Source: Oscillospiraceae bacterium
GTDB taxonomy: Bacteria; Bacillota; Clostridia; Oscillospirales; Ruminococcaceae
Length of the DNA stretch: 45,220 nt
Assembly: GCA_018434245.1 (NCBI GenBank)
Contig: JAHDPQ010000068.1
Location: 1-45,220 of the forward strand
Direction: 5' to 3'
Part shown: piece by piece, positions 1,711 through 23,889 of the stretch
Position numbering within the stretch: position 1 is the stretch's first letter
How the letters are laid out: each line of letters starts with the position of its first letter
Position numbers and translations under genes: made by a program
Notes under the pieces: generated by a model
What the model was told of the DNA's origin: nothing
The model's input: the letters and a program-made list of their open reading frames with translations, nothing else
Databases searched by the model: none

Positions 1711-3087
1711 ATGAAAAAGGCATTGAGTCTGCTGCTTGCCCTTCTGGTGACGGTGGCACTGGTGGCTTGCGGCAATGGCGGCAGCGCTGTATCTCAGCAG
1801 CCTGCACCCCAGGAGAAAAGCCCCCCGGCCCAAGGTGGTTCCCCCCAGGCGGCCCCATCGGAAAAGACACTGGCCCAGCAGTTGACGGTAGACCCGAATC
1901 AGGAGGTTACCATTACCGTTATGTCCATGCACCACACCGAGCAGCGCCGGTCTTTGATGGATCAGAACATCGCTCTGCTCAACGAAAAATATCCCAACAT
2001 CAAAGTGGAACACAACCCTGTGGAAGATTACATCAATGCCATTAAAATGGGGTTCGATTCCGGGGACGCTCCCGACATCGTGTACATAGACGACACCACC
2101 CAAAACATGCTGGAGCGGTACGATTATCTCATGGACATTACCGATATCGCCAAGGAAATGAAGTGGGCGGATGTTTCCAAGCCCGGCTCTCTGGAATACC
2201 AGAACGTTCGCCATCCCGGTGTCATTTACAGCGCCCCCTACATCAGCGGCCCCCGGGTAGTCTGGTACAACAAGGAGATTTTTAACAAGCTGAACCTGAA
2301 CGTCCCCACCACTCTGGACGAATTCGACGATGTTTTGGCCAAGGTCAAAGAGGCGGGGTACATCCCCTTTGAGGCCAGCATCCGCACCACCCTATGGCAC
2401 ATTGACGGATGCCTGTTTGGCATGGTTCCCTTTGAGGATATCAGCAAGTGGTACTATCTGGAGGACAGTACCGATATTTACAAGACCGGACGGAAGGAAG
2501 CTCTGGAAAAGGTAGCCGAATGGGTGGAAAGGGGCTACTTCCGGGAAGGGATTACCTCCATTGACCACAACAACCTCAACGTCCTCTTCCCCCGGGGCGA
2601 GACCGTCTTTTATGTTTCCGGCGCATCAGCGGCAGGCCCTCTGGCTTCGGCCAATATGGATGTAGGGGCCTTCCCCTTCCCCAAAAAGAGCAAGGACTTC
2701 CCAACCACTCTGGTGGATGCTTCCGATAGCGGCTGGGCCATTCGGGCCGACCTGCCGGAGGAAAAGCTGGCGGCAGCTGTGGCCTTTATCGACTCCTTCT
2801 TCACAGAACAGTCCGCCCGCCTGTGGACCGAAGGCGGATTTGTCAGCCTGCTGACCTTTGACCAGTCGGATGCCAAGGTGACTCCTCAGCAACTGGCTGC
2901 CATTCAGGCCTGCGAAGGCGCTCAGATGGGCTACTTTCTGGATAATGCCGCCCCCGGGCTGCTGGATGCCATGGAAATTCTCAACGCCCGCCTGCATCTG
3001 AAAGAAATTACAGGTGCCGACTACGATGCGCTGATTGACCAGCAATATGAAGAGCTAAAGGCCGAAGAACTTTCCAAGCGGTCTTAG
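1711..3087 (+). CDS. ABC transporter extracellular solute-binding lipoprotein (sugar type)
   Basis: A 458-residue family 1 extracellular solute-binding protein. The N-terminus is a lipoprotein signal peptide with lipobox LVAC and Cys20 as the lipidation site, followed by a Gln/Pro/Ser-rich linker to about residue 50. The mature domain shows typical carbohydrate-binding-protein features such as PDIVYIDD near residue 120 and a WYNKEIFNKL stretch. AAGGAGG lies 5 bases before the ATG. It should deliver a sugar or sugar derivative to the two permeases that follow. No ATPase is encoded here, so a shared MsmK/UgpC-type ATPase elsewhere would be needed. The upstream amino-sugar enzyme suggests an amino sugar or methylated derivative as cargo, which is inference only. 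Confidence 0.9.
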   Translation: MKKALSLLLALLVTVALVACGNGGSAVSQQPAPQEKSPPAQGGSPQAAPSEKTLAQQLTVDPNQEVTITVMSMHHTEQRRSLMDQNIALLNEKYPNIKVEHNPVEDYINAIKMGFDSGDAPDIVYIDDTTQNMLERYDYLMDITDIAKEMKWADVSKPGSLEYQNVRHPGVIYSAPYISGPRVVWYNKEIFNKLNLNVPTTLDEFDDVLAKVKEAGYIPFEASIRTTLWHIDGCLFGMVPFEDISKWYYLEDSTDIYKTGRKEALEKVAEWVERGYFREGITSIDHNNLNVLFPRGETVFYVSGASAAGPLASANMDVGAFPFPKKSKDFPTTLVDASDSGWAIRADLPEEKLAAAVAFIDSFFTEQSARLWTEGGFVSLLTFDQSDAKVTPQQLAAIQACEGAQMGYFLDNAAPGLLDAMEILNARLHLKEITGADYDALIDQQYEELKAEELSKRS

Positions 3088-11590: not shown

Positions 11591-12088
11591 CTACTTTTTC
11601 GCTTTTTGGCCGATGTACAGGGTGATGTCCCGCTCCTCGCTGCCGCTGGGCTCCAGAGTTTCCGGATCAAAGGCGGTGATCTGAGCCACACACTGATAAA
11701 TTCCATCCGGCAGCTGGATATGCAGAGCGGCTTTTTCTCTGCTTTGGCCGGGCTTGATGAAGCCGGTGTAGAGAAGGTTTTCTCCGGTATCCGGCTTGAT
11801 GACGGTAACCGTCATATAAAATTCGTTGGTTTCGGGGTTGTGAATCTGGAAGTTCCCCTGAGACTGGGGACTGTCCAAGTTGACCTTGCGGCTGATGGTA
11901 TAGGGAAACAGCCCGGATTCTTCCTCGGATAAGGCCAGAGACGTCTCATCGGGGGCCGCCAATACCGTCACCGCCAGCTCGCTGAACACTGTCAGGCGCA
12001 GCAGCAGTGAGGTCAAAGTCACGCAGACGATGGCCACGCAGAAAAGTGAGGTCATTCGCTTCATATTAGAATACAGTTTACGCTTCAT
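11591..12088 (-). CDS. Uncharacterised exported protein
   Basis: A 165-residue protein I do not recognise. Residues about 12-45 form a hydrophobic N-terminal signal or anchor with Ala-Ala at its end. The rest is a soluble domain of alternating strands (FQIHNPETNEFYMTVTVI, then LHIQLPDGIYQCVAQI), suggesting an Ig-like or beta-sandwich extracellular domain. ATG 12088 has GGGAG upstream. It stands alone between two minus-strand transcription units and has its own terminator. The dispersed element copy 1 lies immediately upstream in the same orientation, so this gene may be transcribed from the element's promoter. Confidence 0.65.
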   Translation of the reverse strand: MKRKLYSNMKRMTSLFCVAIVCVTLTSLLLRLTVFSELAVTVLAAPDETSLALSEEESGLFPYTISRKVNLDSPQSQGNFQIHNPETNEFYMTVTVIKPDTGENLLYTGFIKPGQSREKAALHIQLPDGIYQCVAQITAFDPETLEPSGSEERDITLYIGQKAKK

Positions 12089-12109: not shown

Positions 12110-12845
12110 AATAAATGGACGGTGGTTCTTTCGCCAACTGGCGATGTGGATGTTGGCTCTACGTGGGAGCCACTGCAGCGGGCGTCGTTTGCCAACGTGG
12201 CGGATGTTGGTTCCGCGTGGGTGCCCCGTTCTTTCAGCGACGGCCGGGCCGAAGTTGTCGCTGCCGCGACGGGCGTTACTTTTCCCCACGGAAAAGTAAC
12301 CAAAACGTGTTTTAAGACCTGTGCAGGGAGGCCTAGCCGGCCCCCCTCGCAACCCCCCGCATCAAAGAAACTGCCACGAAAAGGTTACCTTCTCCCGAGT
12401 GTCCTCACCTTAGGTGATCGGGCCGTAAACGTCGCTTCGCGACAACGGCCACCGGAAGAAAAGGAACTTCTTAGGTTTGCATATCCTTACCGCTCGTCGT
12501 CCTCGTTCCTCGGACTCCTCGCGGCGGTCAAGGTAAAATCACACATTGCCCTTTCTCTTTGTTCGCACTCACGTACCCAAGCATTGATGCTGCCAAGGCA
12601 TACAACCCTCCAACAAACATCGAGCAGGAGTAGCGTCTACAGCTTTGCAGCTACGGAACGCGGGGTTACAAAGGGGTGTCAAACCCCTTTGAGAGGGGGC
12701 CGGGGACCCATCCCCGGCGTGTTTTGCCTCCTTTTGCACGAACAAAAGGAGGGGCCCTGCCGCGGCCTGAGCGGCAAGTGCGGCTGCGATGCTCTTCGCG
12801 GAGGAATCGCCTGCTTCGCCAAAGCATTCACCACAGACATCCTGC
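12110..12845 (-). repeat. Dispersed structured element, copy 1 (candidate large ncRNA or leader)
   Basis: This is the minus-strand copy of a roughly 600-bp core shared with 15100-15815 and 21430-22270. In minus-strand order the core holds these hairpins: CCTCCTTTTG/CAAAAGGAGG (12727-12752), CCGGGGA/TCCCCGG (12700-12717), CAAAGGGGT/ACCCCTTTG (12669-12691), a two-part stem GGCCGT/ACGGCC around GTCGC-GAA-GCGAC (12421-12450), GGGGGGCC/GGCCTCCC (12326-12346), an 11-bp GTTACTTTTCC stem (12275-12300) and GTCGC/GCGAC (12257-12270). The 3' flank toward 12110 holds two degenerate repeats of a unit with ACATCC and GTTGGC. No transposase or conserved protein frame is present. The promoter at 12874-12902 reads into it, and the next gene (12088) is co-oriented. 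Confidence 0.8.
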
Positions 12846-12873
12846 CTAAAAATATCCCCACTATATTACGACT

Positions 12874-12902
12874 ATTGTATCATAAGCAACGACAGGATTC
12901 AA
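12874..12902 (-). promoter_or_regulatory. Promoter reading into element copy 1
   Basis: On the minus strand: TTGAAT (12897-12902), a 17-base spacer, and TACAAT (12874-12879) preceded by TGA (extended -10). The core of copy 1 begins about 74 bases downstream. It lies in the gap after typA, so it is not needed for any other visible gene. Confidence 0.6.
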
Positions 12903-12905
12903 CTG

Positions 12906-12948
12906 TTTTCCACAGGATTTTCCACAAAAGGCACCCTTGTTGTGGAAA
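12906..12948. promoter_or_regulatory. Cluster of three DnaA-box-like sites
   Basis: TTTTCCACA occurs at 12906-12914 and 12918-12926, and the inverted TTGTGGAAA at 12940-12948. The same variants (TTTTCCACA, TTGTGGAAA) recur around dnaA at 42551-42664 and 44104-44224 in this window. The cluster directly abuts the -35 of the copy 1 promoter and lies 9 bases after typA. The outer and middle sites also form an inverted repeat that could be a typA 3' hairpin, but there is no T tract. Confidence 0.5.
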
Positions 12949-12956
12949 GTTGGGCT

Positions 12957-14771
12957 TTACTTCTTGGCATTGGCCCGCATCCGGGTGGTTTTGTCCAGAA
13001 GCCGCTTGCGCAGCCGAATGCTGCTTGGAGTCACTTCCAGCAGTTCATCGTCGGCCAAAAACTCCAGCGATTCCTCCAAGCTCATCTTCTTGGGAGGGGT
13101 CAGCCGCAGTGCATCGTCGGAGCCGGATGCACGCATGTTGGTGACGTGCTTCTTTTTGCAGACGTTGACCGCCATGTCGTCTGTTTTGGGAGAAGCACCC
13201 ACAATCATTCCCTCATAGACAGGGGTTCCCGGGCCGATGAACAGAATTCCCCGCTCTTGGGCGTTGTGGAGTCCATAGGTCACGGCCTCTCCCGCCTCAA
13301 AGGCAATCAGGGAGCCGGTGCTTCTGGTGGGAATCTCCCCCTTGTAGGGAGCATAACCGGCAAACAGGGTGTTGAGCACGCCTTCTCCCCGGGTGTCGGT
13401 CATAAACTCGCTGCGGTAGCCGAACAGGCCCCGGGCGGGAATGGTAAACTCCAAACGCATCCGGTTGCCCATAGGGGACATGGAGCCCAACTCTCCCTTG
13501 CGGCGGCTTAGTTTTTCAATGACAGCGCCGGCATGTTCTTCGGGAACGTCCACCGTTACCTGCTCCATGGGCTCCTGCCGAATATCATCAACGGTTTTGT
13601 AGAGCACCCGGGGCGTGCTGACCTGAAACTCGTAGCCTTCCCGGCGCATGGTTTCGATCAGGATGGAAAGGTGCATCTCACCCCGGCCTGCCACCCGAAA
13701 GGCCTCGGTGGTTTCGGTTTCCTCCACCCGCAGGGAAACATCTTTGAGTAGCTCCCGCATCAGACGGTCCCGCAGGTGGCGGGAGGTGACGAACTTGCCC
13801 TCTCGTCCCGCAAAGGGGGAATCGTTGACCGAAAAGGTCATCTCCATGGTGGGCTCGGAAATTTTGACAAAGGGCAGAGGCTCAGGGGTATCCGCCGCGC
13901 AGATGGTCTGCCCAATGGTGATGTTCTCAATCCCCGAGACACAGACAATATCCCCCACCTGGGATTCGGTGATGGGAGAGCGGCTCAGCCCCTCGATGGC
14001 GTAGAGGTTGGCCACCTTTCCCTTATAGGACTGCTCACTGTGCCAGTCGCAAACAGTGATATCCATCCCCTGGCGGATGACGCCTCGCTCCACCCGGCCG
14101 ATGCCGATCCGGCCAACATACTCGTTGTAGTCGATGGAGCTGACCAGCATCTGCATGGGGCCCTGCTCGTCCCCTTGCGGAGCGGGGATATGGCTGACAA
14201 TCATGTCGAAGAGGGGGGTGAAGTCCTTCCCCGGCTCGGTAGGAGACAGGGAGGCGGTTCCCTGTCGGGCAGAGCAGTAAATAATAGGGCTGTAGAGCTG
14301 CTCTTCGCTGGCTTCTAAATCCATCAGAAGCTCCAAAACTTCTTCCTCGATTTCCTCACTTCTGGCGTCGGGCCTGTCTACCTTGTTGACTACTACAATC
14401 ACCTTGTGGCCTAGCTCCAGCGCCTTTTGCAGGACAAAGCGGGTTTGAGGCATGGTGCCCTCAAAGGCGTCTACCACCAGCAGAACGCCCCCCACCATCT
14501 TGAGTACCCGCTCCACCTCGCCGCCAAAGTCGGCGTGCCCGGGGGTGTCTATAATGTTGATTTTGGTATCCTTCCAGTGGATGGAGGTGTTCTTTGCCAG
14601 AATGGTGATGCCCCGCTCCCGCTCCAGGTCGCCGGAATCCATCACCCGATCCTCCACCTGCTGGTTTTGGCGGAACAGGCCGCTCTGCTTGAGCATTTCG
14701 TCCACCAGGGTCGTTTTTCCGTGGTCTACGTGGGCAATAATTGCCACGTTGCGCAAATCGTTACGAATCAA
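12957..14771 (-). CDS. typA: Ribosome-associated GTPase TypA/BipA
   Basis: A 604-residue translational GTPase of full family length. It has AHVDHGKTT (G1, near residue 10), GITI (G2), DTPGH (G3), NKVD (G4), an EF-G-like domain arrangement and the BipA-specific C-terminal domain. It binds the ribosome near the A site and helps 50S assembly and stress adaptation. The start is TTG 14771 (protein begins [20 protein letters not shown] as in orthologues) with AGAGGA 7 bases upstream; the longer frame to 14903 has no homology. It is monocistronic and flanked by inverted copies of the dispersed element. Confidence 0.95.
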
Positions 14772-14809
14772 AAGAAAGTCCTCTTTTCGAGATTTATCTT
14801 GGTGCAGTA

Positions 14810-14922
14810 TTTGCACCACGTTCGGGCCTGTTGACCGCCGTCTTTTGGGACACATTCCCCTTATCCAAACCAGACCTGAAACATCAACAACATAATATAT
14901 CATAAATCGGCATAAAACGCAA
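14810..14922 (-). promoter_or_regulatory. typA promoter and hairpin leader
   Basis: The promoter on the minus strand is TTGCGT (14917-14922), 17 bases, TATATT (14894-14899) with TGA before it (extended -10). The roughly 115-base leader ends with a 7-bp hairpin TGGTGCA/TGCACCA (about 14810-14828) shortly before the ribosome site, which could affect initiation. Confidence 0.6.
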
Positions 14923-15042
14923 TGGAGAGGATTGGAATTTGCTCATTAGATAGGGCTTTTTGCGTCTGCCCTCTGCTTGGAATCAAAGAAAAGCTCCCGG
15001 CGGAGTCTTGCCCTCGCCCGATGGCTTTATGGAGCCATTCTG

Positions 15043-15051
15043 TGTTATAAT
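15043..15051 (+). promoter_or_regulatory. Extended -10 promoter reading into element copy 2
   Basis: TGTTATAAT at 15043-15051 is a perfect extended -10. No good -35 is seen at 16-18 bases. It points to the right, away from typA, and the copy 2 core begins about 155 bases downstream, before the acetyltransferase gene at 15887. Confidence 0.5.
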
Positions 15052-15099
15052 AACCTCATCCCTTGTGAAAATGATCAGATTAAAATGGGTTTTCTCGCT

Positions 15100-15815
15100 A
15101 GTGGCGGTTTTCTTTCAGTGAAGGACATCGCAGTGCCAGCTTGCCCCCAGGCGAGGTACTTTGCCGAAGCGGCGGCTTCCTCTATTACCAGAGTAGGTTC
15201 TTCTTCCGCGAAGAGCATCGCAGCGCCAACTTGCCGCTCAGGCCGCGGCAGGGCCCCTCCTTTTGTGCGTGCAAAAGGAGGCAAAACACGCCGGGGATGG
15301 GTCCCCGGTCCCCTCTCAAAGGGGTTTGACACCCCTTTGCATCCCCGCATTCCGTAGCTACTTAGCTGTACATGCTACTCCTATTGAACGTTTTCCGGAG
15401 GGTTGTATGCATTGGCAGCATCAATGCTTGGGTACGTAGGTGCGTACAAAGGGAAAGGGCAATGTGTGATTTTACCTTGACCGCCGTGAGGAGTCCGAGG
15501 GACGAGGACGACGAGCGGTAAGGATATGCAAACCTTAAGAAGTTCCCTTTCTTCCGGTGGCCGTTGTCGCAAAGCGACGTTTACGGCCCGATAGCCTGCA
15601 GAGTGAACAGTCGGGAGAAAGTAACTTTGTGCGATGCTTCCTTGACGCGGGGGGTTGCGAGGGGGGCCGGCCAGGCCTCCCTGCGCAGGTCTTAAAACAC
15701 GTTTTGGTTACTTTTCCGTGGGGAAAAGTAACGCCCGTCGCGGCAGCGACAACCTTCGGCCCAGCTCCAGCTGAGAAATCGTGGCTCCAACGTGGAGCTA
15801 CCATCGGTTGACAAC
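15100..15815 (+). repeat. Dispersed structured element, copy 2 (candidate large ncRNA or leader)
   Basis: The plus-strand copy has the same hairpin order as the other two: CCTCCTTTTG stem 15256-15281, CCGGGGA stem 15291-15308, CAAAGGGGT stem 15317-15339, two-part GGCCGT stem 15559-15588, GGGGGGCC/GGCCTCCC 15661-15681, 11-bp GTTACTTTTCC stem 15707-15732, GTCGC stem 15737-15750. Upstream of the core (about 15102-15255) are two diverged copies of a unit containing CATCGCAG-GCC-CTTGCC. The copy differs from copies 1 and 3 mainly in loops and linkers. It is in divergent intergenic DNA between typA and the acetyltransferase, co-oriented with the latter. Confidence 0.8.
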
Positions 15816-15886
15816 ATCATCAACACCATAGGCGGATCGCCTACTCAAGGATTCTTCCGCCGTTTTAAAATAGGAGGTCTTTTGTT

Positions 15887-16327
15887 ATGATTCGCAAAAT
15901 CCAACCCCAAGACCGAGAGGCCTTTATCGCCCTTGGCCAAAAGTTCTATCACTCCGAAGCGGTGCTTTCTCCCATACCGGAGGAGCACTTTGCCCGCACC
16001 TTTGACGAGGTGCTTTCCGGCAACCCCTACGCCGACGCTTTGATGGTGGAGTGGGAGGGCCAAACCGTGGGATACGCCATTCTGGCTCTTACCTGGTCCA
16101 ACGAGGCAGGGGGTATGGTGCTCTGGCTGGAAGAGCTTTACATCCTGCCTGACTTTCAGGGTAAAGGGCTGGGCAGAGAGTTTTTTGCCTACGTGGAGGA
16201 ACAATACGCTCAAAAGGCCCTGCGGTTCCGCTTGGAAGTGACGGAAGACAACACCGGAGCCATCCGGCTTTACAACAAGCTGGGGTATCAAGATTTTGAT
16301 TACCGCCAGATGATCAAGGAGCTGTAA
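15887..16327 (+). CDS. GNAT family N-acetyltransferase
   Basis: A 146-residue single-domain GNAT protein. The acetyl-CoA pyrophosphate loop is LPDFQGKGLGREFF (motif A, near residues 88-101), and the C-terminal signature is LEVTEDNTGAIRLYNKLGYQ. ATG 15887 has AGGAGGT 8 bases upstream. The substrate cannot be inferred. It follows element copy 2, which may be its leader, and is separate from the rimI operon, which has its own promoter. Confidence 0.85.
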   Translation: MIRKIQPQDREAFIALGQKFYHSEAVLSPIPEEHFARTFDEVLSGNPYADALMVEWEGQTVGYAILALTWSNEAGGMVLWLEELYILPDFQGKGLGREFFAYVEEQYAQKALRFRLEVTEDNTGAIRLYNKLGYQDFDYRQMIKEL

Positions 16328-16333
16328 TTTCTG

Positions 16334-16362
16334 TTGCCGCTCCCCTGCTTTTGTGCTATGAT
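16334..16362 (+). promoter_or_regulatory. Promoter of the rimI-tsaD-comF operon
   Basis: TTGCCG (16334-16339), a 17-base spacer, and TATGAT (16357-16362) preceded by TGC. The leader of about 105 bases contains a GC-rich region with a T run (16380-16412) that could form a weak hairpin. Confidence 0.55.
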
Positions 16363-16473
16363 ATTTTCTAGGGAAAAAGGGATTCCCGTCCCATTGGAGG
16401 GGGATTTTTTCCTCCAACTTTTAAATGCTAACCTTCCATCTCCTTGCTTTGCCCTCTCCCAGAAAGGAATTGT

Positions 16474-16926
16474 ATGCATATCTATCCCATGACAGTCGAA
16501 ATGTTGCCCCACATAGCCATTCTGGAGCACCTTTGTTTTTCCGATCCCTGGAGTCAGGCATCCCTGGAGGAAGAGCTGCGCAACCCCTTATCTACCTGGC
16601 TGGTGGCAGAAGTTTCCGGACAAACGGCAGGCTACGCCGGAATGCACCGGGTGCTGGACGAGGCCTGCGTCACCGATGTGGCGGTAAGCCCTGCTTACCG
16701 CAGAAAGGGCGTGGGCAAAGCTCTGATGCTGGCTTTGGAGGATATTTGCCGCCGGGAAGGCTCCGCCTTTCTCACCTTGGAGGTTCGGGAGTCCAATCTG
16801 GGGGCCATCGCCCTTTACCGGGGCCTTGGCTTTGAAAAAGCCGGACGACGCAAATATTACTACACCCATCCCACCGAGGATGCGTTGTTGCTTACGAAAT
16901 TCTTTGCCCGGGAGGCGACCCTGTGA
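16474..16926 (+). CDS. rimI: Ribosomal protein S18-alanine N-acetyltransferase RimI
   Basis: A 150-residue GNAT protein. VTDVAVSPAYRRKGVGKALM (motif A) and LEVRESNLGAIALYRGLGFE are typical of RimI. ATG 16474 has AAGGAA upstream; an earlier in-frame start is out of range of it. The stop overlaps the tsaD start (GTGA), matching the common rimI-tsaD pairing of Firmicutes. It acetylates the N-terminus of S18 or related targets. The usual companions tsaB and tsaE are not next to it here. Confidence 0.85.
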   Translation: MHIYPMTVEMLPHIAILEHLCFSDPWSQASLEEELRNPLSTWLVAEVSGQTAGYAGMHRVLDEACVTDVAVSPAYRRKGVGKALMLALEDICRREGSAFLTLEVRESNLGAIALYRGLGFEKAGRRKYYYTHPTEDALLLTKFFAREATL

Positions 16927-17930
16927 AAATCCTAGCCATCGAGTCCTCGTGTGACGAAACTGCCGCCGCTTTGGTGGAGGACGGCAGAACCGTCCTTTCC
17001 TCGGTGATTTACTCTCAAATTGAAGAACACCGCCTCTATGGCGGCGTGGTTCCGGAAATTGCCTCCCGCCGCCACACCGAGCAGATCGCTCAGGTGACCC
17101 GCCGGGCTCTGGAGCAGGGGGGTATCTCCCTGTCCCAAACCGATGCCATTGCCGTCACCTTTGCCCCCGGGCTCATCGGTGCCCTGCTGGTGGGTGTAAA
17201 CTTTGCTAAAGGTCTTGCTCTGGCCACCGGCAAGCCTCTCATTCCCGTCCACCATATCCGGGGACACATTGCCGCTTGCTATCTGGCCCACCCCGATCTT
17301 AAGCCGCCTTTCCTCTGTCTGGTGGTGTCGGGGGGCCACAGCCATATTGTGGAGGTGCTGGACTACACCTACTTCCGGGTGATCGGCCGCACCTGGGACG
17401 ACGCGGCGGGAGAAGCCTTTGACAAAGCTGCCCGGGTGATGGGTCTTTCCTATCCCGGGGGAGTACAGCTGGACAAGCTGGCTGCAACCTCCCGGCCCGG
17501 GACGTATTCGCTTCCCACCCCTAAGGTGGAGGGGCATCCTTACGACTTTTCCTTCTCCGGCCTCAAAACCGCCGTGGTGAATTTGGTCCACAACGCCAAT
17601 CAAAAGGGGGAGCCTTTGGACAAGGCCGCTCTGGCCGCCGACTTTGCCGAAACGGTGGCACAGGTGCTTTCCTCCCGGCTGATGGCCGCCGCCAAGGAGC
17701 TGGGCTACCGGACTCTGGTCTGCTCCGGCGGAGTCAGCGCAAACTCTCAGCTGCGGGCCAAGCTAAAGGAAAAGGCTGCCAAAGCGGGAACCTCCCTGTA
17801 CCTGCCGCCTCTAAGCCTTTGCGGGGACAACGCCGCCATGATCGGTTCTCAGGCCTATTACGAGTATCTGGCAGGGAATCTGGCGGGGATGGAGCTCAAT
17901 GCCCGAGCCAGTCTGGATGTCTCCCGATGA
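16923..17930 (+). CDS. tsaD: tRNA t6A37 threonylcarbamoyltransferase TsaD
   Basis: A 335-residue protein of normal length for TsaD (formerly Gcp/YgjD). It begins ILAIESSCDETAAA, has the metal-binding HHIRGH near residue 110 and the ASKHA-fold SGGHSH near 135, then CSGGVSANSQLR near 262. It transfers the threonylcarbamoyl group to A37 of ANN-decoding tRNAs, normally with TsaB and TsaE, which must be encoded elsewhere. The GTG start overlaps rimI, and its end overlaps comF by ATGA, so the three genes are translationally coupled. Confidence 0.96.
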   Translation: MKILAIESSCDETAAALVEDGRTVLSSVIYSQIEEHRLYGGVVPEIASRRHTEQIAQVTRRALEQGGISLSQTDAIAVTFAPGLIGALLVGVNFAKGLALATGKPLIPVHHIRGHIAACYLAHPDLKPPFLCLVVSGGHSHIVEVLDYTYFRVIGRTWDDAAGEAFDKAARVMGLSYPGGVQLDKLAATSRPGTYSLPTPKVEGHPYDFSFSGLKTAVVNLVHNANQKGEPLDKAALAADFAETVAQVLSSRLMAAAKELGYRTLVCSGGVSANSQLRAKLKEKAAKAGTSLYLPPLSLCGDNAAMIGSQAYYEYLAGNLAGMELNARASLDVSR

Positions 17931-18628
17931 GAGGGGACCTCTTTGACCGGATGATCAGCTTGGTGTTTCCCAGGGGCTGCGTCCTCTGCGGAGCCACCGT
18001 TGCCTTTGACGATCTGGTCTGCTCCCGCTGTGTTCCCGACCGAATCCGGGAGGAGTCTTGCCTTTTTTGCGGAAAGCCTCGCAGTTCCTGCCACTGCGAG
18101 GGGGAACAGTGGGCCTTTGAGGGAGCCGCAGCCGCCCTTTATTACCGGGAGGAAACCCGGGGAGCCCTGCTCCAGCTGAAGAAGCTACCCGACCGCAGAA
18201 TCGCCCGTTATCTGGCGGGGGAAATGTTTCTCTGCCAACGCCGGGAGTTCCCCGGGGTCCCCTTTGATGTGATCACCGAGGTTCCTATGCACCCGCAAAA
18301 GCTAAAAAAGCGGGGCTTTAATCAGGCGGAGCTGCTGGCGGGACAGCTTGCAATTCTTGGCGGCATCTTTCACCGGATGCGCCTGCTGACCTGTTCCGGC
18401 CCGGTGCAGTCCCAGCACACCCTTGGCCGGAAGGAGCGGTTTGCCGCCGCCCGGGAGCGGTATTCTCTTGCAGGCGATGTCCGGGGGAAAACCGTGCTGT
18501 TGGTGGATGATGTGTTTACCACCGGGGCCACCGCTCAGGCCTGTGCCGCCTGCCTCATGGCCGGGGGCGCCCGGGAAGTGTACGTATTGACGGCGGCAGC
18601 CACGCCCTTTTTGGCAACGCTGCCGTGA
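17927..18628 (+). CDS. ComF family phosphoribosyltransferase-like protein
   Basis: A 233-residue ComFC-type protein. The N-terminal Cys pairs (CVLCG, CSRC, CLFCGK, CHC within residues 17-60) form a zinc-finger region. The C-terminal PRTase fold has the PRPP-binding motif VLLVDDVFTTGAT near residue 187. In naturally competent bacteria ComFC works with the ComFA translocase in DNA uptake; comFA is absent here, so the role may be different. ATG 17927 overlaps the tsaD stop. It is probably the last gene of the rimI-tsaD transcript. Confidence 0.85.
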   Translation: MRGDLFDRMISLVFPRGCVLCGATVAFDDLVCSRCVPDRIREESCLFCGKPRSSCHCEGEQWAFEGAAAALYYREETRGALLQLKKLPDRRIARYLAGEMFLCQRREFPGVPFDVITEVPMHPQKLKKRGFNQAELLAGQLAILGGIFHRMRLLTCSGPVQSQHTLGRKERFAAARERYSLAGDVRGKTVLLVDDVFTTGATAQACAACLMAGGAREVYVLTAAATPFLATLP

Positions 18629-18699
18629 ATCCATTTGCCGGTTCCGGATGTTTTAAACAGGAGCCAGCTCCACAGAAACTGTAAAGTTGAGGGAACAAC

Positions 18700-20043
18700 A
18701 TGCAGACCATGACCAGCCTGGCCTTTTTATATGTGATACTGCCTGCGGCCATGGCGTTTTTTTTGCTCTGCCCCCCGGTTTGGAGGCAGGGCGCTTTGCT
18801 GGCGGTTTCTTTGGGGTTTTTCCTCATGGTGCAGCCCTCCACCTTTCCCCTTCTGCTGGCCTGTCTGGCCACCGACCGTCTGATTCTGGCTCTCATCTAC
18901 CGCTACGACCATTCCGAGGCTCTGCGTAAGGGCTGTGTGGCGGCCTCGGTAATCAAGAATCTGCTGGTGATGCTGGTGATGGAAGCTCTCTTTCAGATGA
19001 ACAGGCTGGTGGAGGCCCCTTGGGGCCTGCGGATTTACGCCCTTTCTTCTTTGAGCTGCGTGCTGGAAGCCTATCGGGGCCAGATTCCCCGGGAGCGTAG
19101 CACCCTTTCCTATCTGCTGTACTGCAGCTTTTTCCCCCGACTGGAGGCCGGCCCCCTGCTGCCTTACCGGGATTTTGCCCCCCAGCTGGAGTATCTGAAC
19201 CCCACCCTGACAGAGATTGGGGCTGGCTTTGGAGTGTATCTTCAGGGGGCGGTCAAGGCCGGAGTGCTGGGCCAGTCCCTGCAGGTGACCTACGATGCCC
19301 TGCGGGCCTTTCCCCCCGAGGATGTGACGGTGGCAGGAACCTGGTGCACCGTGCTGATATTGGCGCTTGCGGTGTATTACCGGCTGTCCGGCCTTTCGGA
19401 AATGGCCCGGGGCGTGGGGCAAATGATGGGGATTTCCCTGCCTAAGAACTTTTACTTCCCCTATCAGTCTCAGGGAGTCACCGACTTCTTCCAGCGGTTT
19501 AACATCAGCGTTTCCGCTTTTATCCGCAATAATGTCTACCGTCCCTTGCAGACCGAGGAGGACAGCGTCTTTGCTGACTGCCTCAACCTTATTCTCTGGG
19601 GAGTGCTAATGGGCCTGTGGTTTGGGCTGCGGATTAACTATATGCTGTGGGGTGCTTATCTGGCCCTGTTCCTTATTTTAGAAAAGCATGTTTTTTCCCA
19701 TATGGAGGACAAGATCCCCCCTCTGTTTATGCGCATTTACACCTTGTGTGTCATTTTGTCCAGCTTTACCATCTTCGGTGGGGCTTCCCCCAGAGCCAGC
19801 GCTGCCACCATCGCCTCAATGTTCAGCTTTCAGCGGCTGGAACTTTACAACGATCGGCTGGTCTACCTGCTTTCCTCCAACTGGCTGCTGCTGGTGGTGA
19901 GCTTGCTCTTTGCCACCAGCGCCGTCAGTCTGGTGATGAGCTTTTTACGCCGGATTCTGCCCCGCTTTTCCGCCCTGCTCACCACGGCGGTCAACGCCGC
20001 TTTGCTGGTGATGTTCACCATCTTTACCATCCGGGTGGGATAA
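18700..20043 (+). CDS. MBOAT-family membrane protein lacking both conserved histidines
   Basis: A 447-residue polytopic protein with about 10 hydrophobic segments. It aligns by eye with DltB/AlgI-type O-acyltransferases: SFFPRLEAGPLLPY near residue 145, then YYRLSGLSEMARGVGQMMGI near 228, then the two signature regions. The first, normally FWRRWHISLS, reads FFQRFNISVS near 263 (His to Asn). The second, normally GLWHG, reads GLWFG near 307 (His to Phe). Both residues held to be essential for acyl transfer are therefore replaced, although the frame is intact. ATG 18700 has GAGGGA upstream. The next gene is a DHHW-type partner, also without its catalytic residues. A non-catalytic transport, scaffold or sensing role is inferred. 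Confidence 0.8.
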   Translation: MQTMTSLAFLYVILPAAMAFFLLCPPVWRQGALLAVSLGFFLMVQPSTFPLLLACLATDRLILALIYRYDHSEALRKGCVAASVIKNLLVMLVMEALFQMNRLVEAPWGLRIYALSSLSCVLEAYRGQIPRERSTLSYLLYCSFFPRLEAGPLLPYRDFAPQLEYLNPTLTEIGAGFGVYLQGAVKAGVLGQSLQVTYDALRAFPPEDVTVAGTWCTVLILALAVYYRLSGLSEMARGVGQMMGISLPKNFYFPYQSQGVTDFFQRFNISVSAFIRNNVYRPLQTEEDSVFADCLNLILWGVLMGLWFGLRINYMLWGAYLALFLILEKHVFSHMEDKIPPLFMRIYTLCVILSSFTIFGGASPRASAATIASMFSFQRLELYNDRLVYLLSSNWLLLVVSLLFATSAVSLVMSFLRRILPRFSALLTTAVNAALLVMFTIFTIRVG

Positions 20044-20085
20044 CCCGGAAGCCATTTTAACCCTTTTGTCCAAGGAGGTGGGAGT

Positions 20086-21210
20086 ATGAAGCGAATATCG
20101 TCGGTTCTGCTGGGAGCGGCGCTGCTGCTTCTGCCCTTTTTCCTGTTGGGAGCAGGGGGGGGCGATTCCCTGCCTCTCTCCTCCGCCCTATGGATGGGAA
20201 GCGGCAGGCTGACCTCCTATCTGGAGGGCTACCTCAACCTTCATCTGCCTTGGGTGGATCAAATGGCCCAGTGGAATCTTTCCATCCGGGCGTTTGGCGG
20301 TCAGCGGGAGTATAATCAGGTGTTTATCTGCGGGGATGAGCTGATTCGGGATATCGATCCCCCGGTGGAGTATTCACTGCGGGAAAACGCAGCCTCAATT
20401 CTGGAGTTTGCCGAGCGGGGAAGCATCCCCACCTACTGTATGATTGTTCCCACTGCCAGTGCCATCCGGCAGCAGAGCCTTCCCCCCTTTACTCAGACCC
20501 AGATGGTCAACCAAAAGCAGATCATCGAGGATGTCTACTCCGAAATGGTGGGACGGGTGACGGTGGCCGACACCTATCCGGTGCTGTTCAACGCTCGGGA
20601 TCAGTATCTCTACTACCGCACCGAGGATAATCTCACCTCTCTGGGGGGATTTTATCTGTATACCGTGCTGGGTCCCAAGCTGCTGGAAGGAGTGGCTCGT
20701 CCCTCTTTGGCCGACTATGACATCGAGTTTGTTAAGAACGACTTTTATGGCAGCTTGTATCAGAAATCTCCCTACAAGGATGCCCGGGCCGACAGCTTGG
20801 CCATCTTCCGGTACACCAAAAACCCTAGGCAGTATCTGGTGAAGAAGGATCAGGACGGGGCCCTCAAGACCTATCACACTCTGTATCCTCTCCACATGCT
20901 GGACCTGAGCCGGGAAATGGATGTTTTTCTGGGAGGGCTCAGCGCCATTACCACCATAGAAGCCAACTCTCCCTATCGGGCCAGCCTGTTGGTGTTTGGT
21001 GACAAGACAGCCCTTGCTTATCTTCCCTTTCTGGTCAACCACTACAGTACCGTTACTCTGGTGGATTTGTTCCAGCTCAGCTCACAGGGATACGATTCCC
21101 TTTCCCTGCTGGATTACGATCAGGTGCTGTTCGGCTACAGCATCGAAACCTTTATGCACTACAACATTCCCTCCCGGGCCAACCGCCTGCTGGATACCTT
21201 GGATGACTAA
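20086..21210 (+). CDS. DHHW/AlgJ-X-like exported protein lacking its catalytic motifs
   Basis: A 374-residue protein with an N-terminal signal/anchor (about residues 4-24) and an extracellular SGNH-like domain. The overall pattern matches the DHHW family that pairs with MBOAT proteins. However, the motif usually read as TDHHWT after YYR is TEDNLT here (near residue 184), and the GDS motif that supplies the catalytic Ser is GDKTALAYLPFL (near 305), so Ser is replaced by Lys. The frame is otherwise intact. AAGGAGG precedes ATG 20086, 43 bases after the MBOAT gene, so they form one operon. Co-loss of active-site residues in both partners argues for a retained joint non-enzymatic role. Confidence 0.7.
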   Translation: MKRISSVLLGAALLLLPFFLLGAGGGDSLPLSSALWMGSGRLTSYLEGYLNLHLPWVDQMAQWNLSIRAFGGQREYNQVFICGDELIRDIDPPVEYSLRENAASILEFAERGSIPTYCMIVPTASAIRQQSLPPFTQTQMVNQKQIIEDVYSEMVGRVTVADTYPVLFNARDQYLYYRTEDNLTSLGGFYLYTVLGPKLLEGVARPSLADYDIEFVKNDFYGSLYQKSPYKDARADSLAIFRYTKNPRQYLVKKDQDGALKTYHTLYPLHMLDLSREMDVFLGGLSAITTIEANSPYRASLLVFGDKTALAYLPFLVNHYSTVTLVDLFQLSSQGYDSLSLLDYDQVLFGYSIETFMHYNIPSRANRLLDTLDD

Positions 21211-21217
21211 AAAAGGC

Positions 21218-21245
21218 GGGAGGAAACGACAAAGCGCTTCCTCCC
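21218..21245 (+). terminator. Probable terminator of the MBOAT-DHHW operon
   Basis: GGGAGGAA (21218-21225) pairs with TTCCTCCC (21238-21245) across a 12-base loop, 8 bases after the stop. The following bases are only moderately T-rich (ATTTAT). Confidence 0.6.
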
Positions 21246-21340
21246 ATTTATATGATCGCAAAAGCCTCTTTGGAACAGGCTCTGCGTTCAGGCGGGGCCA
21301 TATGCCCGACAACCATCTATATGCCAATTGCCATGGAAGG

Positions 21341-21402
21341 GTGACATCGCCGCCGCTTTGTGGTATAATATCCGCCAAGTGAATAGGAGCCGAAATGCGG
21401 CT
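21341..21402 (+). promoter_or_regulatory. Strong promoter reading into element copy 3, with early hairpin
   Basis: GTGACA (21341-21346), a 17-base spacer and TATAAT (21364-21369) preceded by TGG: a 5/6 -35 plus a perfect extended -10. The expected start is near 21376. A small hairpin GAGCCG/CGGCTC (about 21386-21402) followed by four T lies just inside the transcript and could be an early pause or attenuator. The element core starts about 205 bases downstream of the -10. Confidence 0.7.
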
Positions 21403-21429
21403 CTTTTCCGTAAGCCCAAGGTGGCTTTT

Positions 21430-22270
21430 CTTCCGCAAGTGGCGGGAATTGTTCCCGATACCGGGGGCGGTTCTTCTTCCGCGAGGGGCATCGCGGTGCA
21501 GCTTGTCCCTCGGGCCGGGGCGGGGTGCTTGTGCCAAGTGGCGACTTCTTCCAATGCCGGAGCGGGTGATTCTTCCGCGAAGAGCATCGCGGTCACACTT
21601 GCCCCTCAGGCCGGGGCGGGGCCCCTCCTTTTGTTCGTGCAAAAGGAGGCAAAACACGCCGGGGATGGGTCCCCGGTCCCCTCGCAAAGGGGTTTGACAC
21701 CCCTTTGTATCCCCGCGTTCCGTATCAGTAGAGCCAAAGGTGCTATTCCTATTAAACGTTTGTGGGAGGGTTGTATACCTTGGCAGCATCAATGCTTGGG
21801 GACATGAGTGCGAACAAATGGAAAGGGCCGCGAGGAGTCCGAGGAACGAGGACGACGAGCGGTAAGAGAATGCAAACCTAAGAAGTTCCCTTTCTTCCGG
21901 TGGCCGTTGTCGCAAAGCGACATTTGCGGCCCGGTAACGTAGAGAGCGAACAGTCGGGAGAAGGCAACTTTTCACGATACTTCTTTGCCGCGGGGGGTTG
22001 CGAGGGGGGCCGGCCAGGCCTCCCTGCATAGGTCTTAAAACACGTTTTGGTTACTTTTCCGTGGGGAAAAGTAACGCCCGTCGCGGCAGCGACAACCTTC
22101 GCTCCAGCGCTAGCTGAGAAATCGTGGCTCCAATGTGGAGCTTACATCCACGCCATGCGTTGGCGACGAACCCCGTCGCGGCAGCGACAACCTTCGCTCC
22201 AGCGCGCTAGCTGAGAAATCGTGGTTCCCACGTAGGGTGACATCCCCGCCACAGGTTGGCAAACGAACCC
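21430..22270 (+). repeat. Dispersed structured element, copy 3 (candidate large ncRNA or lysS leader)
   Basis: The longest copy. Core hairpins: CCTCCTTTTG 21624-21649, CCGGGGA 21659-21676, CAAAGGGGT 21685-21707, two-part GGCCGT/GCGGCC 21902-21931, GGGGGGCC/GGCCTCCC 22004-22024, 11-bp GTTACTTTTCC 22050-22075, GTCGC/GCGAC 22080-22093. The 5' end has two diverged units of about 95 bp (about 21437-21535 and 21539-21625). The 3' end has a tandem duplication of about 100 bp: CCCGTCGCGGCAGCGACAAC occurs at about 22077 and again at about 22173, with CGTGGNTCC and TTGGCNAACGAAC-like parts in each. lysS starts 126 bases after it in the same direction, with no terminator seen between. Confidence 0.8.

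Positions 22271-22392: not shown

Positions 22393-23889
<1,497 letters not shown>

Follow-up and report, generated by a model that had tools for sequence, protein, structure and literature searches.

What is the large non-coding sequence that occurs three times within about 10 kb of an Oscillospiraceae genome, and does it act as an RNA or as a piece of mobile DNA? The window analysed here is the whole 45,220-nt stretch of contig JAHDPQ010000068.1, for which an earlier note had offered two explanations, a multicopy structured RNA family or a new class of non-autonomous repeat. Judging from sequence comparison, we consider it likely that the repeat is a non-autonomous, transposon-like (MITE- or BOX-like) interspersed non-coding DNA element.

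Three copies of a modular repeat in the window

Repeat finding recovered direct and inverted blocks among all three copies, at the positions and in the orientations first reported for them (Table 1). The direct blocks span 275 and 232 bp with 90% and 87% identity, and the inverted blocks span 307, 274, 146, 116, 116, 98 and 33 nt with 85-97% identity. The reported shared core with long near-identical blocks was recovered as well, copies 1 and 3 matching copy 2 at 90% and 85% identity over ~530 bp. Since the element extends beyond this core and its ~90-bp outer units repeat in varying number, the outer edges are fuzzy. Each end consists of a GC-rich hairpin followed by an A/T-cored hairpin and CAAAAC, and the two ends are mutually inverted; terminal inverted repeats, made up of the hairpin and CAAAAC module at both ends, are present but imperfect. 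In copy 2, the CACG of CAAAACACG complements CGTG of the 5' hairpin loop. By eye, an additional outer inverted repeat of ~75 nt can be seen in the same-genus genome G005.

Table 1 Coordinates of the three copies and their surroundings in the window
Feature	Position	Strand	Remark
Copy 1 with arms	12110-12845	-	outer edges approximate; core 12252-12756
Copy 1, 5' terminal hairpin	12727-12752	-	CAAAACACG next at 12718-12726; sequence reading
Copy 1, 3' terminal hairpin and CAAAAC	12275-12306	+	inward on +; pattern match
TACAAT, -10-like box upstream of copy 1	12874-12879	-	not exact TATAAT; outside the 12 of 16
Reading frame 3' of copy 1, codirectional	11591-12088	-	no Pfam match
Copy 2 with arms	15096-15815	+	edges approximate; left arm units 15096-15136, 15186-15226
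Copy 2, 5' terminal hairpin	15256-15281	+	CAAAACACG next at 15282-15290; sequence reading
Copy 2, 3' terminal hairpin and CAAAAC	15701-15732	-	inward on -; pattern match
TATAAT, ancestral promoter at copy 2	15046-15051	+	also at element-free G006 site
GNAT acetyltransferase gene 3' of copy 2, codirectional	15887-16327	+	Pfam
Copy 3	21430-22270	+	edges approximate; left arm units 21459-21499, 21555-21595
Copy 3, right arm unit, two times	from 22077 and from 22172	+	
Copy 3, 5' terminal hairpin	21624-21649	+	CAAAACACG next at 21650-21658; sequence reading
Copy 3, 3' terminal hairpin and CAAAAC	22044-22075	-	inward on -; pattern match
TATAAT upstream of copy 3	21364-21369	+	
Class II tRNA synthetase gene (lysS by eye) 3' of copy 3, codirectional	22396-23889	+	Pfam

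Copy number, coding potential and mobility genes

The window's genome (G000) holds 24 matches to a 532-bp probe, of which 16 reach 350 bp or more. Many of these matches lie at contig ends because the assembly broke on the repeat, so that copies coincide with assembly breaks. The claim that no reading frame is conserved proved right in that there is no coding signature, but not to the letter, as stop-free stretches are common in frame to all 12 aligned copies, the longest cases reaching 67 codons on the minus strand and 35 on the plus strand. Variable columns in these shared stretches are spread evenly over the three codon positions (16, 16, 15 and 13, 16, 16), and of the variable codons, 26 out of 30 and 21 out of 25 alter the amino acid. 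Because the variation falls evenly on codon positions, we rejected an element-encoded protein. The longest stop-free run per copy was 75-167 codons among the 12 copies, three of which exceeded the 95% point of 135 codons from 300 mononucleotide shuffles of one copy (median 92, maximum 165).

As first noted, no transposase, integrase or reverse transcriptase lies nearby: none was present among ten proteins scanned around the copies in the window, one of which gave no Pfam match. An autonomous version was found neither beside the window copies nor within four inward-facing hairpin pairs 1.7-4.8 kb apart, in a search that was not exhaustive; by eye, these four pairs enclose host-like genes (recD2-, rarA- and GNAT-like) and no shared recombinase.

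Fold of the core and the question of an RNA family

The core folds more stably than its dinucleotide shuffles on both strands (z of -4.56 on plus and -4.28 on minus). As a whole it is predicted to form a four-way junction, with pairing between the outer arms and between CAAAAC at one end and GUUUUG at the opposite end. Additionally, across relatives the loop of the end hairpin is complementary to the bases that follow CAAAA more frequently than in shuffles, in a set of 75 that keeps L070 and L095, two cases with no real hairpin that look like chance matches. Pairing between the two ends as the sole cause of this loop-flank complementarity was rejected, because the arms of the Pseudomonas copy L240 differ from each other, each keeping its own loop-flank match.

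Within species, a change on both sides was seen in 2 of the 124 predicted pairs among 12 copies, with a covariation term of +0.26. One helix keeps its pairing between G000 and G004 despite a change of sequence (GGCCGT/ACGGCC to GGCCGC/GCGGCC), and L035 and L020, two related copies, carry one internal hairpin in the opposite orientation. The data do not support a dedicated RNA family, because so few pairs (2/124) change on both sides; the about equal folding of the two strands and the inverted internal hairpin likewise speak against the multicopy structured RNA family proposed earlier.

In line with the earlier failure to recognise a named large RNA, Rfam gave no match above the gathering score in the window; the element is nonetheless not entirely separate from named RNAs, since its Pseudomonas relatives contain TwoAYGGAY. 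At a relaxed threshold the best hit for copy 2 was msiK, with an E-value of 3 and below threshold, and nothing credible was returned for this copy or for copies L001 and L005. With respect to a group I or II intron or a retroelement, there was no Rfam match in the window and no reverse transcriptase among the ten neighbouring proteins. A literature search, largely of freely accessible papers, returned no description of the element or its end motif.

Copies behind promoters and sites without the element

In G000, a TATAAT in sense orientation lies 60-400 nt ahead of the left hairpin in 12 of 16 copies; antisense in the same zone the box occurs in 1 of 16 copies, and downstream in 1 of 9. By our reading, the gene 3' of the element runs in the same direction in 11 of 14 copies and in the opposite direction in two, with one case unclear, the context of L010 resting on a frame that begins inside the element. 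Genes downstream of the copies look like housekeeping genes, with a tRNA synthetase, a GNAT/TsaD operon and, by eye, purA-, purL- and arcC-like genes. Since 12 of the 16 copies have a -10 box of sigma-A type ahead of them, the element is probably co-transcribed in G000 as part of mRNA leaders.

We compared three orthologous sites lacking the element in the same-genus genome G006, all three of which carry the promoter TATAAT at the matching place. The typA/GNAT intergenic region measures 104 bp there and 945 bp with the element, the purA-like leader 174 and 894 bp, and the region upstream of the purL-like gene 316 and 975 bp. Only the typA/GNAT site is clean, because at the two others G006 has different non-coding sequence, which may be a remnant. 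As the -10 box is present at these three element-free sites, it is ancestral there, and we rejected the box as the element's own promoter. At the purL site there is a second promoter downstream of the element, which counts against our favoured reading. No consistent target-site duplication was found at the three sites compared; separately, one flank of ~59 nt at copy L203 of G005 looks duplicated by eye. L013 seems to have its copy in common with G004 L031, in what is by eye the same promoter context, which would make at least one insertion old. The sequence TGTGTTATAATAACCTC occurs in identical form at L001 and L005, two unrelated loci of G000, and the ancestral promoter does not fully explain it.

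In G005, of the nine copies that have both flanks, one has TATAAT upstream and two have it downstream, the upstream count leaving out L202, L206, L207, L209, L211 and L213, which lie less than 60 nt from a contig end. The leader position as a general rule was rejected, since the copies in G005 and those of Alistipes type differ from it.

Distribution of the end hairpin in other bacteria

The exact end hairpin is patchily distributed, occurring in two of 197 genomes from the order and being absent from the same-genus genomes G001 and G008. It is present 116 times in Alistipes G067 and 17 times in Gastranaerophilales G068 (both drafts), and recurs in Sphingobacterium, Pseudomonas, Lysobacter and others. 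A chance origin of the match was rejected, as the reversed pattern gave no hit in 13 genomes and none in the 197. Among Alistipes-type copies with both flanks judged, 14 of 20 lie between convergent genes, a placement to be expected if insertions persist where they are tolerated.

Mobility, transcription and rival explanations

The second of the two original proposals, a new class of non-autonomous repeat, is supported by the many copies, the inverted hairpin ends, the empty sites in a relative, the patchy distribution and the lack of a coding signature. A putative trans-acting recombinase would copy or move the element by recognising its folded ends, probably as single-stranded DNA. In the window's lineage the element would land, or survive, some tens of bases past sigma-A -10 boxes, and transcription would then make it a long 5' leader. 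By pairing with each other, the two ends could close this leader into one domain, which would leave the native ribosome-binding site and gene usable and the insertion tolerated.

A functional cis-regulatory leader RNA, a single class kept before many genes to control their expression, appears quite unlikely to us. It would account for most G000 copies following a -10 box and preceding a codirectional gene, for the housekeeping look of those genes, for the stable fold of the core (z -4.56) and for the helix that keeps pairing between G000 and G004 across a sequence change; yet it is at odds with the scarcity of two-sided changes (2 of 124 pairs in 12 copies, covariation term +0.26), the comparable folding of the opposite strand, the same promoters in G006 without the element, the lack of leader bias in G005 and downstream genes that have no apparent common pathway.

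Y1 enzymes act on hairpins, and the paired inverted hairpins, together with Y1_Tnp matches in G000 (six) and in G004, G005, G063 and G064 (one each), would suit an IS200/IS605 derivative, or a REPIN-like element that a REP-associated (Y1) transposase mobilises. However, five element motifs of 9-15 bases are absent within 1.5 kb of the six G000 matches, a sixth, the 9-mer AAAAGGAGG, is found at four of the six loci and may be a ribosome-binding site, and the drafts of Alistipes G067 and Gastranaerophilales G068, with their 116 and 17 ends, contain no Y1_Tnp, all of which makes this origin very improbable. Strong hairpins and the convergent flanks of the Alistipes-type copies (14/20) would also be seen if hosts maintained bidirectional terminators or nucleoid sites that spread by selection and not by mobility of their own. 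We regard this as very unlikely, given that most G000 copies lie between promoter box and gene, where a terminator would silence the gene, that the end hairpins have no T-run after them, and that the distribution is patchy.

Reading the repeat as a non-autonomous, transposon-like DNA element makes a testable family out of what was unexplained, with the same end module marking repeats in several phyla. The end module predicts an enzyme that reads the hairpin together with the loop-flank pairing. In this lineage, the long leaders placed between promoters and housekeeping-like genes may alter expression. A broader possibility, which we hold to be doubtful, is one ancient mobile-DNA class over Bacillota, Bacteroidota, Pseudomonadota, Cyanobacteriota and Campylobacterota (phyla as we infer them), with a pseudoknot-forming end and moved by a putative recombinase, of which the TwoAYGGAY 'RNA' would be one lineage's internal part, and which in the window's lineage would target newly transcribed DNA behind active promoters. 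In the pseudoknot, the hairpin loop would pair with the bases directly following CAAAA. The target could then be, for example, the non-template single strand in the transcription bubble.

Comparison with known systems

MITEs share with the element non-coding content, inverted ends, many copies and intergenic location, whereas for the element neither a parent transposon nor a consistent target-site duplication was found in the sites compared. BOX elements are modular, with a variable number of units. Together with RUP and SPRITE of pneumococci they are described as small interspersed repeats judged parasitic, strongly structured and in some cases expressed (PMC3049150). Compared by description and not by sequence, the core in the window is longer and has inverted hairpin ends. 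In REPINs, two inverted hairpins bound a non-coding unit. The element differs from REPINs and RAYTs (PMC3116915) in its core of ~500 bp, its end motif and in that no associated Y1 transposase was found.

Multicopy intergenic families are also known from P. fluorescens, where they include R178 (101 bp, with an 11-bp internal inverted repeat) and R200 (320 bp), and where a tail-repeat-tail bias is reported for several families (PMC2718517). Like the element, R178 and R200 are multicopy and intergenic, in a host of a different phylum; our guess that they are identical with the Pseudomonas arms of the element comes from comparing descriptions, not consensus sequences.

The TwoAYGGAY RNA (Rfam RF01731; PMC2864571) differs in having no match above the gathering score in the window, G000 or G005, but in the Pseudomonas records L050 and L107 it lies inside an arm that, like the ends of the element, combines a GC hairpin, a GTTACTTTTG-type hairpin and CAAAAC of a similar kind. 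In two Pseudomonas genomes, 16 of 50 TwoAYGGAY matches form eight inverted pairs with starts 429-1,100 bp apart, and the six pairs inspected carry GC and GTTACTTTTG-type hairpins, with spelling variants, in both arms. A family defined by the end module would explain why the TwoAYGGAY motif is multicopy and partly arranged in inverted pairs.

Mosaic copies with inverted hairpin ends

Repeat finding bore out the three structured copies proposed in the earlier note, with direct and inverted blocks linking 12.25-12.82, 15.15-15.81 and 21.52-22.15 kb. A 532-bp probe yielded 24 matches in the own genome (G000; 3.11 Mb, 185 contigs); 16 span 350 bp or more, and many matches stop at contig ends. The 16-copy alignment and the 12-copy core alignment (A1) both give one order of parts. 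On the left side, arm units of about 90 bp lead into the hairpin CCTCCTTTTG-loop-CAAAAGGAGG, then CAAAACACG and a core of about 430 bp, built of alternative blocks that the copies share as a mosaic. Reading inward from the right along the opposite strand, the hairpin GTTACTTTTCC-loop-GGAAAAGTAAC is followed by CAAAACGTG, and the right arm units lie outside. Arm units number at most two in window copies and three in a contig of same-genus G004 (L038).

Coordinates of features and exact end hairpins per genome
Sequence	Feature	Coordinates (strand)	Exact end hairpins
Window	Copy 1	12110-12845 (-)	
Window	Copy 2	15096-15815 (+)	
Window	Copy 3	21430-22270 (+)	
Window	Promoter locus L001	15036-15056	
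L127	Lysine riboswitch match	2287-2458 (-)	
G067	Alistipes, 2.0-Mb genome		116
G005	Same genus		50
G000	Own genome		17
G068	Gastranaerophilales		17
G064	Sphingobacterium		10
Five genomes	Gammaproteobacterial		1-4 each
G004	Same genus		1
G008	Same genus		0
G001	Same genus		0

Position close to promoters in the own genome

The typA-GNAT intergenic region measures 104 bp in same-genus G006 versus 945 bp in the window; promoter box TGTGTTATAAT is present in both, and the window element lies between this box and the GNAT start codon. At sites named by eye as purA and purL, 174 and 316 bp in G006 compare with 894 and 975 bp where the element is present; both G006 sites have a TATAAT box, and at purL a second promoter follows the element on its downstream side. 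The two G006 regions are not clean empty sites, because other non-coding sequence lies there. By eye, pieces of it (L253, CTGGCAAGTGTGGA; L256, CGCGAGGCAATCGGGAC) look arm-like and may be what is left of a lost copy. G000 and G004 share at least one insertion (L013 and L031), by eye in the same promoter context.

Of the 16 G000 copies with a left end, 12 have an exact sense TATAAT 60-400 nt upstream of the 3' arm of the left hairpin, and one (L002) has it there in antisense, twice. On the downstream side, where 9 copies have enough sequence to judge, one has TATAAT. The background is 15 TATAAT on both strands of the 45-kb window, or about 0.06 expected per 340 nt, though intergenic DNA would be richer. 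Window copy 1 has TACAAT instead. By our own reading, the downstream gene is codirectional with the element in 11 of 14 judgeable copies, opposite in two (L019, L021) and unclear in one (L018); a codirectional gene follows all three window copies. The unrelated loci L001 and L005 (purL-like) share an identical promoter stretch of 17 nt, TGTGTTATAATAACCTC, and both promoters look ancestral. The promoter bias was not seen in G005: among 9 copies flanked on both sides, TATAAT lies upstream of 1 and downstream of 2.

The end module recurs across phyla

The element probe matched 7 of 61 genomes, own included; four of the others are same-genus (G002-G005), and G014 and G049 gave short, weak matches. 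The G005 element is diverged with the same part order and, by eye, has an outer inverted repeat starting TGTGCCTAC. A recurrent CCTATAATCCGCCC block about 113 nt inside its left end could be an internal promoter. At L203 in G005, a near-identical copy of about 59 nt of one gene's end stands, by eye, on both element flanks, an arrangement resembling either a long target duplication or the trace of an old tandem duplication.

Named genomes yielded at least 116 stretches with the exact end-hairpin pattern (GTTACTTTN{8,14}AAAGTAACCAAAAC). Titles are listed for 80 of these, and the matches listed include Oscillospiraceae, Alistipes, Sphingobacterium, Pseudomonas, Lysobacter, Xanthomonas, Acinetobacter, Gastranaerophilales and Campylobacteraceae. 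The stretches L070 and L095 look spurious. The reversed control pattern gave none in all 13 counted genomes. Within the own order, the exact pattern is present in 2 of 197 genomes, one being G000; diverged ends would escape it. The only match in viral records comprises two stretches (L163/L164) of the 16.7-kb putative viral contig IMGVR_UViG_3300007961_000281. Convergent genes flank 14 of 20 judged copies at Alistipes-type loci (L051, L055, L064 and others), and the contig with the riboswitch match (74.7 bits) also bears two end hairpins.

Pairing between the loop and flank was scored between the loop and the 8 bases from the last C of CAAAAC, counting at least 4 contiguous Watson-Crick pairs. 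Among 75 distinct combinations, found with the flank unconstrained and from lineages that are not independent, 25 paired to this extent, against a mean of 6.6 and a maximum of 13 in 1000 shuffled pairings; 28 had only 1-2 pairs, Acinetobacter-type ends (TTTCGG with CCAT) among them. Across 23 distinct Pseudomonas arms, mean best pairing was 4.13 versus 3.59 in 1000 shuffles (sd 0.16, max 4.04). The Pseudomonas L050 and L107 arms belong to both sets, and four scanned Xanthomonas loci give no listed row. Pseudomonas arms hold compensating variants (AAGCACC/GGTGCTT, AAAGCC/GGCTTT, AGCG/CGCT), and the two differing arms of L240 each keep their own pairing. Together, these observations make a pseudoknot-like end module, as RNA or single-stranded DNA, a well-supported prediction.

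RNA, palindromic DNA or coding sequence

The core folds more stably as RNA than shuffles on either strand (z -4.56 and -4.28). In the predicted fold, the outer arms pair with each other, CAAAAC pairs with GUUUUG, and the terminal hairpins form the remaining branches of a four-way junction. The structured RNA family considered earlier gained little from covariation across copies, which is negligible within species (both-sided change in 2 of 124 pairs). One helix did change on both sides between G000 and G004 (GGCCGT/ACGGCC to GGCCGC/GCGGCC), and the same internal hairpin (GGCCGCAGTCGCC..) is inverted relative to the main family in L035 (G004) and L020 (G000), which fits palindromic DNA better than strand-specific RNA. 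The right terminal hairpin of L035 has a wholly different yet paired stem.

The window, scanned whole, matches no Rfam family; a relaxed search with one copy returned only msiK (E = 3). On the earlier note's claim that no reading frame is conserved, in-frame stop-free stretches are common to 12 of 12 copies, but variation bears no coding sign. The longest found measure 67 codons (minus strand) and 35 codons (plus strand; at least 40 with another reference copy), and the stop-free run exceeds 95% of shuffles in 3 of 12 copies. Variable columns spread evenly over codon positions (16, 16, 15 and 13, 16, 16 in 12 copies) and the residue is altered in 26 of 30 and 21 of 25 variable codons, from which the stretches are read as non-coding.

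Proposed mobility and comparison with known repeats

No recombinase was found among ten proteins scanned around the window copies, in line with their description as transposase-free. The element's longer end motifs are absent near the six Y1_Tnp matches in G000, and the draft genomes G067 and G068 gave no Y1_Tnp match. Four wider-spaced inward end pairs enclose host-like genes, as do two arms of Pseudomonas L237.

Rfam TwoAYGGAY falls within an arm of Pseudomonas L050 and L107, scoring 49.8 and 41.2 bits; the gathering score being 43, the first match exceeds it and the second narrowly misses it. At E <= 0.001, two Pseudomonas genomes hold 15 and 35 matches and a Xanthomonas genome 2; none occurred in a Lysobacter genome, G000, G005 or 14 well-known control genomes. 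Eight inverted pairs account for 16 of the 50 Pseudomonas matches, and the six pairs inspected have end hairpins of the element kind in both arms. The entry on TwoAYGGAY in PMC2864571 gives it as probably RNA, not cis-regulatory, from human gut, gamma-Proteobacteria and Clostridiales. Two repeats of P. fluorescens that PMC2718517 presents, R178 and R200, are candidates for identity and may be the same arms as those of the Pseudomonas relatives.

What is most unusual is that the end module recurs in several phyla and that the element sits close to promoters in G000. Membership of the MITEs is not proven, because neither a parent transposon nor a target duplication was found; the element is best filed as a patchy, proliferating, non-coding repeat with inverted, pseudoknot-prone hairpin ends, MITE/BOX-like in behaviour.
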